From assembly GCF_001570585.1 (NCBI RefSeq), contig NZ_BBXF01000010.1, positions 131,873 to 195,872 of the forward strand: a DNA stretch of 64,000 nt. The letters are read 5' to 3'. Positions within the stretch are counted from its first letter, which is position 1. Every line of letters starts with the position of its first letter. Both the position numbers and the translations under genes were made by a program. Under the pieces are notes generated by a model. That model worked only from the letters and a program-made list of their open reading frames with translations. It did no database searches and was not told the DNA's origin. The DNA is from Herbidospora daliensis. Lineage in GTDB: Bacteria; Actinomycetota; Actinomycetes; Streptosporangiales; Streptosporangiaceae. Positions 986 to 25,855 of this stretch are shown piece by piece.

Positions 986-2176
986 ATGGCAAGGCCGGAG
1001 CGCAAGACGGTCAGGGACGTCCGGAAGGGGAACCGCGGCATGCTGCTGCGGACCCTGTACTTCGGCGGTCCCCGCAGCCGCCATGAGCTGACCGGCCTGA
1101 CCGGCCTGAGCGCGGCCACCATCAGCACCATGACCGGCGACCTCCTCACCGAGAAGATCCTCATGGAGGCCGGCCAGGTCGAGAGCGACGGCGGCCGGCC
1201 GAGGGTGCTGCTGCGGGTCAATCCCGTGTACGCCTACCTCATCGGCGTCGACGTCGCCGAGACCCACGTCCGGGTCGAGCTCTTCGACCTCGAGATGGCC
1301 GAGAAGGCCAGGGTCGACTACACCCTCCGCCCCTCCCACCACGACATCGAGCTGGTCGCGCGGCGCATCCTGGCCGGGATCGACGTGGTTCTGGCCGACG
1401 GCCAGGTGGACGCGTCCCAGGTGCTCGGCGTCGGCATCGGGGTGCCCGGCATCGTCGAGCGCGGCGCCCCCGACGCGCTCATCCACGCCAAGACCTTCGG
1501 CTGGGACGGCGTCCCGCTGGGCGCGCTGATGCGGGCCGGCACCTCGCTGCCGGTCTTCATCGACAACGGCGCCAAGACCATGGGCCAGGCGGAGTTGTGG
1601 TTCGGGGCCGGGCGGGGGGCCGACCACGCGGTGATCGTGCTGATCGGGTCGGGGGTCGGGGCCACCGTGGTGGCCGACGGCCAGGCCGTGCGCGGCACGT
1701 CGAACTCGGCCGGCGAGTGGGGCCACACCAAGATCGAGATGAACGGCCGCCCGTGCCGGTGCGGGTCGCGGGGGTGCCTGGAGGCGTACATCGGGGCCGA
1801 AGGGCTGCTGGCCAGGGCCGGGGTGCCGGTCCAGACGACCGACTGGCCGTCGGCGCTGGGCCGGGTGCTGCACGACGGCGGTCCGGTCGTCGACGAGACG
1901 GTCACCTACCTGGGGACCGGCCTGGCGAACCTGATCAACATGCTGAACCCGGAGCGCATCCTGATCGGCGGCTGGGCCGGCCTGATGATCGGCGAACGCC
2001 ACCTCGACCAGATCCGCGTCGTGGTGGGGGAGAACTCTCTTACCCAGCCCTACAACGCGACCTCGATCGTGCTGGGAGAACTGGGGCCCGACGCGGTCGC
2101 GATGGGCGCGGCGACGCTGGTGCTGGAGGAGTTCCTCGACACGAGCGCTCCACTGCGGCTGCACGCCGCCAGTTGA
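986..2176 (+). CDS. ROK family transcriptional regulator
   Basis: This 396-residue protein is a sugar-responsive repressor. Residues about 15-75 form a winged helix-turn-helix (the SAATISTMTGDLL stretch is the recognition region). Residues about 85-385 form the ROK sugar-kinase-like fold with glycine-rich phosphate loops. The ROK zinc signature is present as CRCGSRGCLE preceded by a His in GEWGHTK. The ATG at 986 follows GGGAGGAC. It is divergent from a sugar-binding lipoprotein gene, the usual arrangement for local control of a sugar importer. An active glucokinase is unlikely because of the DNA-binding domain. Confidence 0.92.
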   Translation: MARPERKTVRDVRKGNRGMLLRTLYFGGPRSRHELTGLTGLSAATISTMTGDLLTEKILMEAGQVESDGGRPRVLLRVNPVYAYLIGVDVAETHVRVELFDLEMAEKARVDYTLRPSHHDIELVARRILAGIDVVLADGQVDASQVLGVGIGVPGIVERGAPDALIHAKTFGWDGVPLGALMRAGTSLPVFIDNGAKTMGQAELWFGAGRGADHAVIVLIGSGVGATVVADGQAVRGTSNSAGEWGHTKIEMNGRPCRCGSRGCLEAYIGAEGLLARAGVPVQTTDWPSALGRVLHDGGPVVDETVTYLGTGLANLINMLNPERILIGGWAGLMIGERHLDQIRVVVGENSLTQPYNATSIVLGELGPDAVAMGAATLVLEEFLDTSAPLRLHAAS

Positions 2177-17749: not shown

Positions 17750-19414
17750 TTACAGGAAAGGCAGGTAGAAGGCGGCGGCCAGGACCAGCGCGCCGGAGCC
17801 GAGCACCACGGGCGAGCGGTACCACGCCTTGTCCCCGGCGATGGAGTCGTCCTTGAGGTCGACGTCGGTCAGGCCGTACACCAGACCCCGCAGCTCCTCC
17901 TCCGGCTTCGGCGTGGTCACCAGCGTGATCGCGACCGACACGATCGCGTCGACCAGGAAGGCCGCCCCCGCCGCGACGAACGACGCGTTCAGGTCGGTGC
18001 CCAGGTCGATCAGCTCGGCCCGGTAGGGGATGTAGACCGCGAACGCCGCCAGGGTGCCCGCGATGATGCCCCAGAAGCCGGCCCACGGCGTCATCCGCTT
18101 CCAGAACAGGCCGATGATGAACGTCGCGAACAGGGGCGCGTTGAAGAACGCGAACAGCGCCTGCAGGTAGTTCATGATGTTGGAGAACCCGGCCGCGATG
18201 AACGCGGTCCCGATGCCCGCCACCACACCGCCGATGGTGGCGACGCGGCCCAGGCGTACATAGAACTCGTCGGGCTTGTCGCCGTTCACGTGGCCTTTCC
18301 AGATGTCGTACGTGAACACGGTGTTGAAGCCCGAGATGTTGGCCGCCATGCCGGCCATGAACGACGCGAGCAGACCGGTCACCGCGACGCCGAGCACGCC
18401 GTTGGGCAGGAACTCGTTCATCAGCAGCGGGATCGCGTAGTTGTACGCCGGCCCGCCGTCCTTGCCGAGGTCGGAGAACAGCACGAGCGCGACCAGCCCC
18501 GGGATCACCGTGACCACCGGGATCAGCAGCTTCGGATACGCCGCCACGATCGGCGTCAGCCGCGCCGCGTTGGTGTTCCGCGCCGACAACCCGCGCTGCA
18601 CCTCGGCGAAGTTGGTCGTCCAGTAGCCGAACGACAACACGAACCCGAGGCCGAACACGATCCCGATCCAGCTCGCCCCCAGCGGATTGTCCGTGGACGC
18701 GGTCGTCGACCACGTGTGCAGCCCGCCGTCGCCGAGCACGCTCTCGCGCACCTTCTGGCCGAGCCCCTCGAACCCGCCGACCCGGATCAGCCCCAGCACC
18801 ACCACGGGCACCAGCCCCGCGATGATCACGAAGAACTGCATCACCTCGTTGTAGATCGCCGACGACAACCCGCCCAGCGTGATGTACGCCAGCACGATCG
18901 CCGCCGACACGATCACCGACAACCACAGGGGCCAGCCGAGCAGCGCCTCCATCACCAGGGCCAGCGCGTAGAGGTTGATCCCCGCGATCAGCACCTGCGC
19001 GACCGCGAACGCGATGGCGTTGAACAGCTGGGTCGCCGGATTGAACCTCCTTCGAAGGAATTCCGGGACGCTGTGCACCTTCGACCGGTAGTAGAACGGC
19101 ATCATCACGATGCCGAGGAACACCATGGCCGGAACAGCGCCGATCCAGTAGTAGTGCACGGTCATGAGGCCGTACTGGGCTCCGTTGGCGGCCATGCCAA
19201 GGATCTCGATCGCCCCGAGGTTGGCGGAGACGAACGCGAGACCCGTGATCCACGCGGGCAGGGCACGCCCGGCGAGGAAGAAGTCGCTGGAGGAGCGGAT
19301 GGCGCGGCGGGCGGCGAAACCGATGCCCACCACGACGGCGAAGTAGAGCGCCAGGATCAGATAGTCCAGCGCGTTGACATCCAGGCGGAGGTCCTGGGGA
19401 GCGAGTGCGAGCAC
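17750..19414 (-). CDS. Sodium:solute symporter (SSS family, sugar/SGLT-like)
   Basis: This 554-residue integral membrane protein has about 14 helices with the LeuT-like SSS fold. The family signature region FFLAGRALPAWITGLAFVSA in the first cytoplasmic loop, the GGLSSAIYNEVMQFF block, and an SGLT-like central part with FWKRMTPWAGFW are present. It most likely imports a sugar or sugar acid with sodium. The GTG at 19414 is the start. It forms an operon with the 77-residue membrane protein. The nearby xylose-type receptor is suggestive of pentose use, but the two are on opposite strands. Confidence 0.92.
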   Translation of the reverse strand: MLALAPQDLRLDVNALDYLILALYFAVVVGIGFAARRAIRSSSDFFLAGRALPAWITGLAFVSANLGAIEILGMAANGAQYGLMTVHYYWIGAVPAMVFLGIVMMPFYYRSKVHSVPEFLRRRFNPATQLFNAIAFAVAQVLIAGINLYALALVMEALLGWPLWLSVIVSAAIVLAYITLGGLSSAIYNEVMQFFVIIAGLVPVVVLGLIRVGGFEGLGQKVRESVLGDGGLHTWSTTASTDNPLGASWIGIVFGLGFVLSFGYWTTNFAEVQRGLSARNTNAARLTPIVAAYPKLLIPVVTVIPGLVALVLFSDLGKDGGPAYNYAIPLLMNEFLPNGVLGVAVTGLLASFMAGMAANISGFNTVFTYDIWKGHVNGDKPDEFYVRLGRVATIGGVVAGIGTAFIAAGFSNIMNYLQALFAFFNAPLFATFIIGLFWKRMTPWAGFWGIIAGTLAAFAVYIPYRAELIDLGTDLNASFVAAGAAFLVDAIVSVAITLVTTPKPEEELRGLVYGLTDVDLKDDSIAGDKAWYRSPVVLGSGALVLAAAFYLPFL

Positions 19415-19454
19415 GGACCCCCGCTACCCCCGAACCTCACCGCATCACGTGGGT

Positions 19455-19829
19455 TCAGTCGAGCAGACCGAGGTACTGGGCCAGCCGCGCCTGGACCTGG
19501 GTCAGCAGGTTCTCGTCGAGGGCGCCGGTCCGGTCTTCCAGGACCGACTTCATCAGCGGCTGGACCGCCGGGATCCTGATCCAGCATTTCTTGGTGGCAC
19601 CGCCCTGACCCCTGGCGAGCTGGATGTCGAAGGCGGTGCGCTGCCTCGTCGAGCCCGAGATCGGGCAGATCAGGACGACTGGCCAGTCGGGGTCACGGTT
19701 CGGCCCTCCACCCGTGACGACGACGACCATGCGGCGCTCGTCGTGGACGACACGCTTGTCCTCCGGGAGCAGGCGGACGACCTTGTCGTTCACGAGGTAG
19801 ACGCCACCGGCCACATAGGGACCCGGCAC
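19455..19829 (-). CDS. PemK/MazF-like toxin (type II toxin-antitoxin)
   Basis: This 124-residue protein has the PemK/MazF beta-barrel pattern: a G-VYLV first strand, the DERRMVVVVTG strand with the conserved Arg, PVVLICPISGSTRQRTAFDI with the Thr-x-Phe-Asp region, then GATKKCWIRIPAVQPLMKS and a C-terminal helix. Members are mRNA endonucleases that stop translation. The GTG start directly abuts the TAA stop of the upstream gene, and GAGGA lies about 8 nt before it, so it is translationally coupled to the antitoxin. Classification is by motif pattern; activity is untested. Confidence 0.8.
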   Translation of the reverse strand: MPGPYVAGGVYLVNDKVVRLLPEDKRVVHDERRMVVVVTGGGPNRDPDWPVVLICPISGSTRQRTAFDIQLARGQGGATKKCWIRIPAVQPLMKSVLEDRTGALDENLLTQVQARLAQYLGLLD

Positions 19830-20498
19830 TTATTCTTCCTCCATGAGGTGGCGGGTCGCCTCGGCACGGTGGTCGGCGAGGTGGGAGATCTCCTCGACCA
19901 GATCGTCGACACCGCCGGGCTCGTGGTCGGGCAGGGGGTTGTCGGCCACCCACCGGCGGAGCCGGTCGAGACCTGAACCCAGATCGGGGAGCGGCGCCCC
20001 GCCGGCCAGGTCGAGCCGGTGATTGTGCTCGACCGCCATTCTCATGGGGGGCGTCTGGAAGGTGTAGCTCGTCAGCTGGTTCGCCGACCACCGGCCGAAT
20101 TCGGCCAGGACGCCGTCGATGATCTCGGCGATCCCGTCGTCGACGGCCGTTTCCGGTGTGTCGATCAAGTGGATGACACGTTCGCGGTTTCCGGTGAAGG
20201 GATCGACGCTCTCCGCCACGAGGATGACGTGGGCTTCGGAGAGGTCGCGCTCGATCTCGGCGAGGCGGACGCTGTGGGGGCCGTGGTCGCTCCATCGCCA
20301 CTCGACTCCGGACCCCGGCGGCACACCGCGTTCGAAGGCGCTGAGGTCGGCTAGGTAGAGGAGGTTGGCCAGTTTGCTGTGGTTGACGCGCATGCCGCTG
20401 GTGCGGGCCGCCGCGAGCAGGTAGGCGACGGCCGCGGCGGGTCCGCGGAGAGGCGCAGAGGCCGACACGGTGCCCAGTTTAAGGACCGGCTGCGCCAT
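19830..20498 (-). CDS. Panacea/DUF4065 (SocA-like) domain antitoxin
   Basis: This 222-residue protein carries the Panacea pattern: a Lys-Leu then LLYLADLSAFE helix near residue 45, a WRWSDHGPHS motif near residue 65, then a helical body. Known Panacea proteins are antitoxins that pair with many unrelated toxins. The C-terminus from about residue 150 (charged, GGVDDLVEEISHLADH) may be the toxin-neutralising part. ATG 20498 is preceded by GGGAGG at 8 nt spacing. The stop abuts the toxin start with no gap, the classic antitoxin-first order. An alternative is a SocA-like proteolytic adaptor. Confidence 0.75.
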   Translation of the reverse strand: MAQPVLKLGTVSASAPLRGPAAAVAYLLAAARTSGMRVNHSKLANLLYLADLSAFERGVPPGSGVEWRWSDHGPHSVRLAEIERDLSEAHVILVAESVDPFTGNRERVIHLIDTPETAVDDGIAEIIDGVLAEFGRWSANQLTSYTFQTPPMRMAVEHNHRLDLAGGAPLPDLGSGLDRLRRWVADNPLPDHEPGGVDDLVEEISHLADHRAEATRHLMEEE

Positions 20499-20605
20499 GA
20501 CCAGTGCCTCCCGCCTGTCACGCCATCGAATGCATGTTCTGTTTTGTCCGGCCGATTGCCGTAACGATACGCTACGGCTCGGTCGCGGGCTGTGTGAATG
20601 GCGGT

Positions 20606-21028
20606 TCAGGTACGTTCGAGTGCCACCACCGGGATCCGGCGGCCGGCCGCCTTCTCGTGTTCGCCGAAGAACGGGAAGTTCTTCTTGATCTCCGACCACA
20701 CCGCGTCGTACTCCGCGCCCTCCGTGGGCCGGGCCTCGGCGATGTAGACCTGGTCGCCGACCTCGACGGTGACCTCCGGGGTCTTCAGCAGGTTCCGGTA
20801 CCACTCCGGGTCCTCCGGGGCGCCGGCCGCCGAGGCCATGACCAGCAGGTGGTCGCCCTCGATGACGTACATCATCGGGGTCGTGTGGGGGCGGCCGGTG
20901 ACGCGGCCGCGGGTGGTGAGGATCAGCAGGGCGCGGCCCTCGAAGGGGCCGCCGCCCTTGTGGGCGCGGAACTCCTCGATCGTCTTGCGGTTGATCTCAC
21001 GGATGTCGCCGTCGGCGGGGTTGCTCAT
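20606..21028 (-). CDS. Nitroreductase-type deazaflavin (F420)-dependent oxidoreductase (DDN family)
   Basis: This 140-residue protein has the DDN split-barrel: the ALLILTTRGRVTGRPHTTPM strand pair with its GRxxGxxRxxPx-like motif, EGDHLLVMASAAGA, and PEWYRNLLKTPEVTVEVG. Such enzymes use reduced F420 to reduce quinones or other acceptors. ATG 21028 is used; an alternative ATG lies three codons upstream. It follows the patatin gene by 29 nt in the same direction, so co-transcription is likely. Confidence 0.92.
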   Translation of the reverse strand: MSNPADGDIREINRKTIEEFRAHKGGGPFEGRALLILTTRGRVTGRPHTTPMMYVIEGDHLLVMASAAGAPEDPEWYRNLLKTPEVTVEVGDQVYIAEARPTEGAEYDAVWSEIKKNFPFFGEHEKAAGRRIPVVALERT

Positions 21029-23043: not shown

Positions 23044-23093
23044 CCATGCACGCGCTGGGCGGACGGTCAGGGTCCCCACCTGATCGTGCATGG
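23044..23093. other. Long-range inverted repeat in the GH74 5' region
   Basis: CCATGCACG (23044-23052) and CGTGCATGG (23085-23093) are perfect 9-bp complements enclosing 32 nt that contain a smaller CAGG/CCTG stem. It lies 33 nt before the GH74 start. It could be a leader structure or a second operator. Confidence 0.45.
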
Positions 23094-23125
23094 CCGGTTA
23101 TCCATTCACGGAGGAGAAACCGTCC

Positions 23126-25855
23126 ATGCGAAGAAAGATCGTCAGCCTGCTCGCGATCGTCGCCCTGGTGGTGGTCGCGGCGGTGGTGCGGATGGCGCCG
23201 GCGGGGGCGGTCGCCTCCGATCCGTACACGTACAAGAACGTGCGGATCGACGGCGGCGGGTTCGTGCCGGGCATCGTGTTCAACCAGACCGAGCGGAACC
23301 TGATCTACGCCCGGACCGACATCGGCGGCATGTACCGCTGGGACCAGTCGGGATCCTCGTGGAAGCCGCTGCTCGACTGGGTCGGCTTCACCAACTGGGG
23401 CTACAACGGGGTCGACAGCATCGCCACCGACCCGGTGCAGACCAACCGCGTCTACGCGGCCGTCGGCATGTACACCAACTCGTGGGACCCGAACAACGGC
23501 GCGATCCTGCGGTCGACGGACAAGGGCGACTCGTGGGCGGTCACCCCGCTGCCGTTCAAGATGGGCGGCAACATGCCCGGCCGGGGCATGGGGGAGCGGC
23601 TCGCGATCGACCCCAACCGCAACTCCGTGCTCTACCTGGGCGCGCCGATGGGCAACGGCCTGTGGCGCAGCACCGACTACGGCGCGACCTGGGCCAAGGT
23701 GACCGCCTTCCCGAACGCCGGCAACTACAGCGACGACCCCAGTGACCCCAACGGCTACACCAGCCACCAGCCCGGCGTCGTCTGGGTCACCTTCGACAAG
23801 CGCACCGGCAGCTCCGGCAACGCCACCCAGACGATCTACGTCGGCGTCGCCGACAAGAACAACACCGTCTACCGGACGACCAACGGCGGTTCCACCTGGG
23901 AGCGGCTGCCCGGCACCCCGACCGGCTACATCGCCCACAAGGGCGTGCTCGACCACGTCAACGGCTACCTCTACCTCGCCACCTCCGACACCGCCGGGCC
24001 CTACTCGGGCGCGAAGGGCGACGTCTGGCGCTACGCCACCGCGACCGGCGCCTGGACGCAGATCTCGCCGATCCCGTCGAGCAGCGGCGACGCCTACTTC
24101 GGCTACTCGGGCCTGACGATCGACCGGAGCAACCCGGGCACGATCATGGTCGCCACGCAGATCTCCTGGTGGCCCGACGTGATCTTCTGGCGGTCGACCA
24201 ACTCGGGGGCCACCTGGACGCGGATCTGGGACTACACCTCGTACCCGAACCGTAGTTTCCGCTACAAGATGGACATCAGCTCCGCGCCGTGGCTCAGCTG
24301 GGGAGCCAACCCGCAACCCCCCGAGGTCACGCCCAAGCTGGGCTGGATGACCGAGTCGATGGAGATCGACCCCTTCGACGGCAACCGCTTCATGTACGGC
24401 ACGGGCGCCACCATCTACGGATCGACCGACCTGAAACTGTGGGACAGCGGCGGGCAGCTCACCATCAAGCCGATGGTCAAGGGCCTGGAGGAGACGGCCG
24501 TCCTCGACCTGGTCAGCCCGCCCACCGGCAGCGCCCCGCTGATCTCCGGCCTGGGCGACGTCGGCGGCTTCCGGCACACCAACCTCGACGCCGTGCCGCC
24601 GATGATGTTCCTGCAGCCCAACTTCGTCTCGACGACCTCCCTCGACTACGCCGAGCTGAACCCCTCGACGATGGTCAGGGTCGGCAACTTCACCGAGTCC
24701 GACAGGCCGGGCGACAACCACGTCGCCTTCTCCACCGACGGCGGCGCCAACTGGTTCCAGGGTTCGGAGCCCGGCGGCATCAACAACGGCGGCACGGTCG
24801 CGGCGGCGGCCGACGGCAGCCGGTTCGTCTGGGCCCCCGCCGACAGCGGGGCCTCGGTCGTCTACTCGGTCGGGTACGGCAACTCGTGGGCGACCTCCAG
24901 CGGGGTCCCGTCGGGCGCCCGGATCGAATCCGACCGGGTGAACCCGTCGAAGTTCTACGCCTTCAGCAACGGCCGTTTCTACGTCTCCACCAACGGCGGC
25001 CAGACCTTCACCGCCTCCAGCGCCTCCGGCCTGCCGACGTCGGCGCGCTTCAAGGCGGTGCCGGGACGCGAGGGCGACATCTGGCTGGCCGGCGGCTCGG
25101 GCCTGTGGCGGTCGACCAACTCCGGGACGTCGTTCACGAAGCTCTCCAACGTGGAGGAGTCGGACAACGTCGGCTTCGGCAAGGCGGCCCCCGGGCAGTC
25201 GTACATGGCGATCTTCACGATCGCCAGGATCGACGGCGTGCGCGGCGTCTTCCGCTCCGACGACGCGGGCGCGTCGTGGGTGCGCATCAACGACGACCAG
25301 CACCAGTACGGCAACATCGGCGAGGCCATCACGGGCGACCCCCGGATCTGGGGCCGCGTCTACCTGGGCACCAACGGCAGAGGCATCCTGTACGCCGACC
25401 GCACCGGCGCCACCCCGTCGCCCTCGCCCTCCCCGTCGCCCTCCCCGTCACCTTCGCCTTCGCCCAGTCCTTCTCCGTCGCCCTCGCCCTCGCCTTCGCC
25501 GAGTCCGTCGCCGTCGCCCAGCCCGAGCCCGTCTCCGTCTCCCAGCACGGGTAAGGCCTGCGCGGCGACGTACACGATCACGAACTTCTGGCCCGGCGGG
25601 TTCGGCGCGAACGTGACCGTCAGGAACAGCGGGACCAGCGCGATCACCGGCTGGACCGTGCGCTGGACCTGGGCCAACGGGCAGACCGTCAGCCAGCTCT
25701 GGAACGGCGTGCACTCCGCCAGCGGCGCGCAGCAGACGGTGACGAACATGAACTACAACGGCAACCTGAGCCCGAACGGCACGACCTCGTTCGGCTTCAA
25801 CGCCAGTCAGTCGGGCACCAACCCGGTCCCGGCCCTCACCTGCACCCCCGCCTGA
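23126..25855 (+). CDS. GH74 xyloglucan endo-glucanase with C-terminal CBM2
   Basis: This 909-residue secreted enzyme has a signal peptide (residues 1-30, ending near AGAVA), two seven-bladed propeller domains (about 40-750) with repeated WRSTN/S-G-TW blade motifs, a Pro-Ser linker, and a C-terminal family 2 carbohydrate-binding module with its flanking cysteines (CAAT and LTCTPA). The GH74 catalytic aspartates are in ARTDIGG and GLGDVGG. GH74 enzymes cut xyloglucan of plant cell walls; CBM2 binds cellulose. ATG 23126 follows GGAGGAG. A strong hairpin terminator follows the stop. Confidence 0.96.
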   Translation: MRRKIVSLLAIVALVVVAAVVRMAPAGAVASDPYTYKNVRIDGGGFVPGIVFNQTERNLIYARTDIGGMYRWDQSGSSWKPLLDWVGFTNWGYNGVDSIATDPVQTNRVYAAVGMYTNSWDPNNGAILRSTDKGDSWAVTPLPFKMGGNMPGRGMGERLAIDPNRNSVLYLGAPMGNGLWRSTDYGATWAKVTAFPNAGNYSDDPSDPNGYTSHQPGVVWVTFDKRTGSSGNATQTIYVGVADKNNTVYRTTNGGSTWERLPGTPTGYIAHKGVLDHVNGYLYLATSDTAGPYSGAKGDVWRYATATGAWTQISPIPSSSGDAYFGYSGLTIDRSNPGTIMVATQISWWPDVIFWRSTNSGATWTRIWDYTSYPNRSFRYKMDISSAPWLSWGANPQPPEVTPKLGWMTESMEIDPFDGNRFMYGTGATIYGSTDLKLWDSGGQLTIKPMVKGLEETAVLDLVSPPTGSAPLISGLGDVGGFRHTNLDAVPPMMFLQPNFVSTTSLDYAELNPSTMVRVGNFTESDRPGDNHVAFSTDGGANWFQGSEPGGINNGGTVAAAADGSRFVWAPADSGASVVYSVGYGNSWATSSGVPSGARIESDRVNPSKFYAFSNGRFYVSTNGGQTFTASSASGLPTSARFKAVPGREGDIWLAGGSGLWRSTNSGTSFTKLSNVEESDNVGFGKAAPGQSYMAIFTIARIDGVRGVFRSDDAGASWVRINDDQHQYGNIGEAITGDPRIWGRVYLGTNGRGILYADRTGATPSPSPSPSPSPSPSPSPSPSPSPSPSPSPSPSPSPSPSPSPSPSTGKACAATYTITNFWPGGFGANVTVRNSGTSAITGWTVRWTWANGQTVSQLWNGVHSASGAQQTVTNMNYNGNLSPNGTTSFGFNASQSGTNPVPALTCTPA
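25414..25550 (+). repeat. Pro-Ser linker-coding repeat in the GH74 gene
   Basis: About 23 alternating Pro-Ser dipeptides are encoded by mixed CCG/CCC/CCT and TCG/TCC/TCT/AGT/AGC codons. The codon mixing keeps the DNA from being an exact repeat. It is a flexible, probably glycosylated linker joining the propeller domains to the CBM2. Confidence 0.9.

Follow-up and report, generated by a model that had tools for sequence, protein, structure and literature searches.

A chromosomal Panacea-MazF gene pair of Herbidospora daliensis and the C-terminal tail of its antitoxin, a candidate toxin-binding element

The soil actinobacterium Herbidospora daliensis encodes, within the 64,000 nucleotides of DNA analysed here (the window), an antitoxin with a divergent Panacea domain and, directly behind it, a toxin of the MazF/PemK family, a pair which is a new actinobacterial subfamily of the known PanAT kind of toxin-antitoxin system. 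The antitoxin runs approximately 60 residues beyond its Panacea match, and this C-terminal tail recurs on differently built proteins beside the same toxin subfamily, which, judged against the open-access literature, is the new part. The reading we favour, and hold to be fairly likely, is that of a chromosomal type II PanAT module in which the tail, and not the Panacea domain, would bind and block this MazF subfamily, with the Panacea domain as an exchangeable platform.

Both genes are located on the minus strand. The SocA-type antitoxin gene (19830..20498; ATG start, TAA stop) comes first and encodes 222 amino acids, followed by the toxin gene (19455..19829) for 124 amino acids, the GTG start codon of which abuts the antitoxin stop codon. 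Coordinates, gene order and lengths had been given correctly, without the strand, in an earlier note on this DNA; its description of the two genes as directly fused has to be corrected, as the TAAGTG junction (19827..19832, minus strand) consists of two abutting open reading frames (ORFs) and creates no protein fusion. A purine-rich GGAGGAA is found just upstream of the junction, and stop and start codons abut or overlap also in those relatives of the pair that were compared; judged from the sequence, translational coupling of the two genes at this site is probable. A scan of positions 19300-20700 detected zero promoters and zero terminators, a result that is weakly informative in a GC-rich actinobacterium.

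The Pfam model PF02452 (PemK_toxin) matches the 124-residue protein with an E-value of 4.3e-9 and 37 bits, above the cut-off of 23.1, and was found in all five toxin-family members of the first alignment, the window protein included. In a search against solved structures with a toxin-family profile of 14 members, MazF6 (2.5e-7) and MazF9 (4.9e-7) were recovered. The catalytic residues of MazF are an arginine and a threonine or serine. R33 of the toxin is aligned to an arginine in both structures, whereas S58 stands opposite the threonine of PVTS in MazF9 and the threonine of MazF6 is aligned to I57 instead; R33, P56, W83 and Q90 are invariant in 33 of 33 toxins and S58 is found in 32 of them, with proline in one. 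The AlphaFold2 model of the toxin, calculated from a two-sequence alignment (window and L008), was poor (pLDDT 47.9), and a PDB fold search with it gave no match at E<=0.001. Among mobile elements, tblastn with the toxin-subfamily queries P0002, P0006 and P0008 against plasmids and phages, and with P0004 against plasmids, gave no match (limits E 0.01 or 0.001), and pattern searches of viral contigs gave 11 and 13 matches with no relative among them.

Assignment of the antitoxin goes through its family. The SocA_Panacea model PF13274 covers residues 45-148 of the window protein (Panacea core; 20055..20366, minus strand) at E 0.0021 and with 19.4 bits, short of the 25.7 required by the cut-off; the homologous antitoxin of locus L107 passes the cut-off with 33.3 bits, and the model is found at E<=0.1 in nine of the 15 aligned members, window included, with a best value of 1.1e-7. 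The core contains LLYLAD and a GP motif, the latter within WSDHGP and part of the published GPV motif of Panacea (Kurata et al. 2022, PMC8832971); GP is invariant in 15 of 15 members, while the third position of the motif is variable. The two families named in the earlier note are thus borne out, PemK/MazF directly and Panacea, for which it had cited LLYLAD and WSDHGP, via the family, as in the profile searches it had proposed the toxin reaches its cut-off, the antitoxin alone does not, and the L107 homologue does. Likewise in agreement with that note, which had seen no AbrB or RHH domain in the antitoxin, no AbrB, RHH or HTH domain was found with Pfam up to E 10, Panacea being the only match. 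The SocA equivalog model NF047745 scores the antitoxin at 18.7 bits, with a cut-off of 190. Again from a two-sequence alignment with L008, the AlphaFold2 model was poor (pLDDT 44.4). Single-sequence PDB searches of toxin and antitoxin gave chance matches only, among which a likeness of the antitoxin to haemagglutinin HA2 (E 0.043) was rejected.

The tail of the antitoxin (residues 161-222; 19833..20018, minus strand), a candidate toxin-binding element, has no match in Pfam and no credible match in the PDB (best E 0.47). A tail model was built from 27 non-redundant tails, the equivalents of residues 161-222 of the window protein, and searched against 3056 ORFs, in part redundant, from the loci. 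Outside the antitoxins of the same subfamily and their fragments, it found a 113-residue non-Panacea ORF just upstream of the toxin of locus L112 at 3.7e-11, a score helped by L107 being part of the model, and, weakly, at 0.0074 with the best unrelated ORF at 0.14, a 105-residue ORF just upstream of the toxin of genome G145 (L108/L022). At a further toxin locus, L123 in genome G1182, the model recognises the C-terminus of a canonical Panacea antitoxin (Pfam 83.1 bits) at 2.4e-6; the toxins of L123 and L108 are 41% identical. Since the toxins of L112 and L107 are 72% identical and the 113-residue ORF shares 34 of 52 positions with the L107 antitoxin tail, one with and one without a Panacea domain, the two loci come close to a natural experiment. 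Shuffle tests gave 0 in 2000 for L112 versus L107, L112 versus the window protein and L108 versus L107, and 3 in 2000 for L108 versus L112; for L108 versus the window protein the count was 446 in 2000, which is the chance level and no signal.

Tail carriers of the non-Panacea type are known from two loci only, L112 and L108, and it has to be considered that their small ORFs are remnants of Panacea antitoxins which have lost the domain, the tail likeness then reflecting descent and no exchange of a module. Truncated, tail-bearing remnants with no toxin match nearby do exist (L146, L147 and L148), and L112 derives from a draft genome (84% complete, 7% contamination). On the other hand, both ORFs are open and lie close to an intact toxin gene, with a one-base overlap in L112 and a three-base gap in L108; Pfam gave no match to either at E<=0.1, and a search of the two stretches for pieces of Panacea was negative at E<=0.01, so that we regard descent by domain loss as unlikely, albeit worth serious consideration. 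Remnants that still neutralise the toxin would leave the conclusion on the tail unchanged. In L112, a further ORF of 123 residues (1268-1639, plus strand) overlaps the start of the tail-bearing ORF, possibly forming a three-gene operon.

With a tail profile, matches were obtained in at least 44 of 51 genomes, which had been chosen as toxin carriers or close relatives. These comprise at least 48 matches, 45 of them strong (E<=3.5e-12), whereby a match is a given for those sequences from which the profile was made; 41 of the strong matches are at toxin loci, and the four off toxin loci are a toxin-less antitoxin of G011 and the three truncated remnants L146 to L148. No match to the profile was found in the toxin-bearing genomes G478 and G682, where the loci are decayed, and G338, the tail of which (L021), missed by the profile search, is scored by the tail model with 21.4 bits. 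Among Panacea controls the tail was found in none of 11, namely ten plasmid loci hand-chosen from 36 records and L009, with a best score of 0.6 bits. L009 (G000 C4:77808-78083) is a second, canonical Panacea protein encoded in the genome of the window, which matches at 61.1 bits and is devoid of the tail. The Panacea protein of L123 is covered to 80% in none of the 36 plasmid records, which fits the absence of the tail there and is a weak control, as is its coverage to 80% in none of 135 phage records, 40 of the 135 being among the matches listed.

In the mechanism that we propose, the free toxin would act as a MazF/PemK endoribonuclease which cuts RNA and thereby halts translation, its family being assigned from the sequence. 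The antitoxin would be bipartite, with a divergent Panacea domain and the C-terminal tail, which would bind the toxin and block it, and the Panacea domain would be an exchangeable platform, which may act as a sensor and release the toxin upon phage infection or other stress. Binding of the toxin by the tail is suggested by the recurrence of the tail beside the same toxin subfamily and its absence from the 11 controls, following the logic of the elements Phd-C, PAD1 and ZBD; the study of these elements is a precedent for Panacea antitoxins with separate neutralising parts, and its authors prefer a sensor role for Panacea (Ernits et al. 2023, PMC10440598).

Alternatively, the Panacea domain itself may neutralise the toxin, the tail being a stabilising or dimerising appendage only. 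Direct neutralisation by Panacea has been reported for PanA of Bartonella (Ernits et al. 2023, PMC10440598), and co-variation failed to single out the tail, as over 29 loci toxin distances are tracked by those of the Panacea core (Spearman 0.89, partial 0.58) no less closely than by those of the tail (0.86, partial 0.41). The strength of this co-variation of the core is compatible with contacts of both parts to the toxin or simply with a history common to all three. Neutralisation by the Panacea domain alone nevertheless appears rather improbable, considering that in L112 the tail is encoded in the absence of Panacea next to a closely related toxin, that it is also carried by the canonical Panacea protein of another subfamily in L123 and that it is absent from all controls.

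Beyond a toxin-binding role of the tail, its distribution raises the possibility, tentatively put forward here as somewhat short of an even chance, that the tail is a so far undescribed MazF-neutralising module which moves between platforms, namely Panacea domains, divergent as well as canonical, and at least one small protein that has no Panacea. If this were true, the toxin subfamily would keep its tail while the sensing platform is swapped, and one MazF subfamily could be wired to different triggers.

Conservation of the pair was assessed with profile searches, the genome counts of which are lower bounds for the class, family and phylum samples, as approximately 7-13 candidates were scored per genome out of up to hundreds found. 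In the class, at least 46 of 394 genomes match the toxin profile, and a relative of this antitoxin is encoded upstream of nine of the ten strong matches, among which the window is counted. Counted among the nine is L021 (G338), where the antitoxin, by the starts used, is located approximately 100 bases away and is without a Pfam match to Panacea. Of the weaker MazF matches in the class, none of 20 examined has this antitoxin upstream, with 19 further weak matches outside the count. In the family (341 genomes), at least 42 loci with the toxin or pieces of it were found in 42 genomes and 14 of 68 genera, 40 of the 42 with a match to the Panacea model, so that the survey of relatives which the earlier note had suggested shows the pair to be conserved. 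In the phylum sample, at least four of 396 genomes match the toxin. The pair is present in the window and in G782, and no Panacea accompanies the toxin match of G145 or the weak one of G815. Conversely, searching with the antitoxin profile gave matches in at least 11 of 394 class genomes, the one in G193 being only weak. An open antitoxin ORF of G011 has no toxin match around it in the DNA examined; contig C7 of this genome (L007, L054) carries two antitoxin copies, one of them with two in-frame TAG codons, and a DUF433 protein is encoded just downstream of the open copy.

Both genes are intact at 28 of the 42 family loci. The toxin is broken or partial with an intact Panacea gene at seven and neither gene is intact at five, while at one locus each the toxin is intact with the Panacea gene broken (L088) or without Panacea (L112); L088, from the fragmented draft genome G504, has its Panacea split over two frames. 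The excess of toxin-broken over antitoxin-broken loci (7 versus 2) was considered as evidence for a toxin-antitoxin relationship and set aside, the difference being too small to carry weight. In six pairwise comparisons each, dN/dS ranged from 0.14 to 0.36 in the antitoxin and from 0.085 to 0.33 in the toxin; these values, well below 1, indicate purifying selection and speak for real genes and against chance ORFs in both cases. That the pair is inactive, as decaying genes or accidental neighbours, is very improbable, as, although the toxin is broken or partial at 12 of the 42 family loci, the window pair is intact, both its genes are under such selection and the majority of loci have retained both genes. 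The Panacea-MazF module is, on these grounds of sequence, probably functional.

The chromosomal position of the pair is variable in the genus. The two-gene cassette (approximately 19451..20605, minus strand), delimited by comparison with empty sites in congeners, is flanked by genes assigned with Pfam to an F420H2-dependent quinone reductase (20606-21025, minus strand) and a sodium:solute symporter (17750-19414, minus strand). Among seven Herbidospora genomes, the gap between reductase and symporter is empty and 30 bases long in G001, G005 and G006, and holds the toxin-antitoxin pair in the window, G002 and G003 (1191, 1193 and 1220 bases), filled and empty sites parting ways at the reductase stop codon. 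In G004 the gap of 1705 bases holds a different cassette with an ATPase-like protein of 503 residues, for which the PADLOC models HEC-04 (2.3e-17) and ATPase-Toprim_I-B (1.5e-13) were found, with Pfam AAA matches below the cut-off. Uptake of defence-like cassettes at a variable site is compatible with a role in phage defence and no proof of it; PADLOC models gave no match to either protein of the pair up to E 1. The variable junction extends over positions 19415-20608 of the window and 818-2329 of L073. Elsewhere in the window, an ORF of 921 residues (23090-25855, plus strand) has a long Ser-Pro repeat linker before its C-terminal segment and looks, by eye, like a secreted glycoside hydrolase with a carbohydrate-binding module.

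The pairing of Panacea with PemK/MazF as such is not new. PemK is listed among the Panacea-associated toxins, and the MazF-like PanT toxins of Pseudomonas moraviensis and Bifidobacterium ruminantium, both of which inhibit protein synthesis, are among the tabulated PanAT pairs (Kurata et al. 2022, PMC8832971), while MazF/PemK ranks with the most frequent folds in the NetFlax network (Ernits et al. 2023, PMC10440598). With these reports and an annotated pair on a Rhodococcus plasmid, the combination can no longer be called unusual, and the pair, proposed in the earlier note as the best candidate for a new system, belongs to the known PanAT kind, to which it adds, as such, one more actinobacterial subfamily. 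The tail provides a concrete case for the open question whether the Panacea domain neutralises, or senses while a separate, toxin-matched part neutralises.

The PanAT pairs of B. ruminantium and P. moraviensis likewise combine a Panacea antitoxin gene with a predicted MazF/PemK-like toxin; compared by description only, their toxins differ in that CDD gave no hit and HHPred provided the link to MazF (Kurata et al. 2022, PMC8832971). On the plasmid of Rhodococcus sp. DMF-1 (NZ_CP090444.1), a Panacea gene is also followed by a PemK/MazF gene, annotated as SocA-domain protein and PemK, but the toxin, with 15.8 bits in the model of the family described here, is of another MazF subfamily, and the Panacea protein does not have the tail. 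In this plasmid pair (L124 1501-2793), the PemK match covers residues 10-108 of the annotated 241-residue toxin. The toxin family (PF02452) is shared with mazEF and pemIK, the AbrB or RHH antitoxin domain of which was not found here; compared with the type VI system SocAB, this antitoxin is far below the SocA equivalog cut-off and the partner gene is of the PemK family. In PanA:Doc of Corynebacterium doosanense, a C-terminal extension after the Panacea core, Phd-C, has similarly been proposed as the neutralising element; there the toxin is Fic/Doc and the element has been tested, whereas here the toxin is of the MazF family and the element is a predicted one (Ernits et al. 2023, PMC10440598). 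The same work describes with PAD1, of the PAD1/D27 antitoxins of toxSAS, a toxin-matched element which occurs both joined to Panacea and without it, as does the tail; PAD1 is N-terminal and tested, and the candidate element of the Herbidospora antitoxin is C-terminal.
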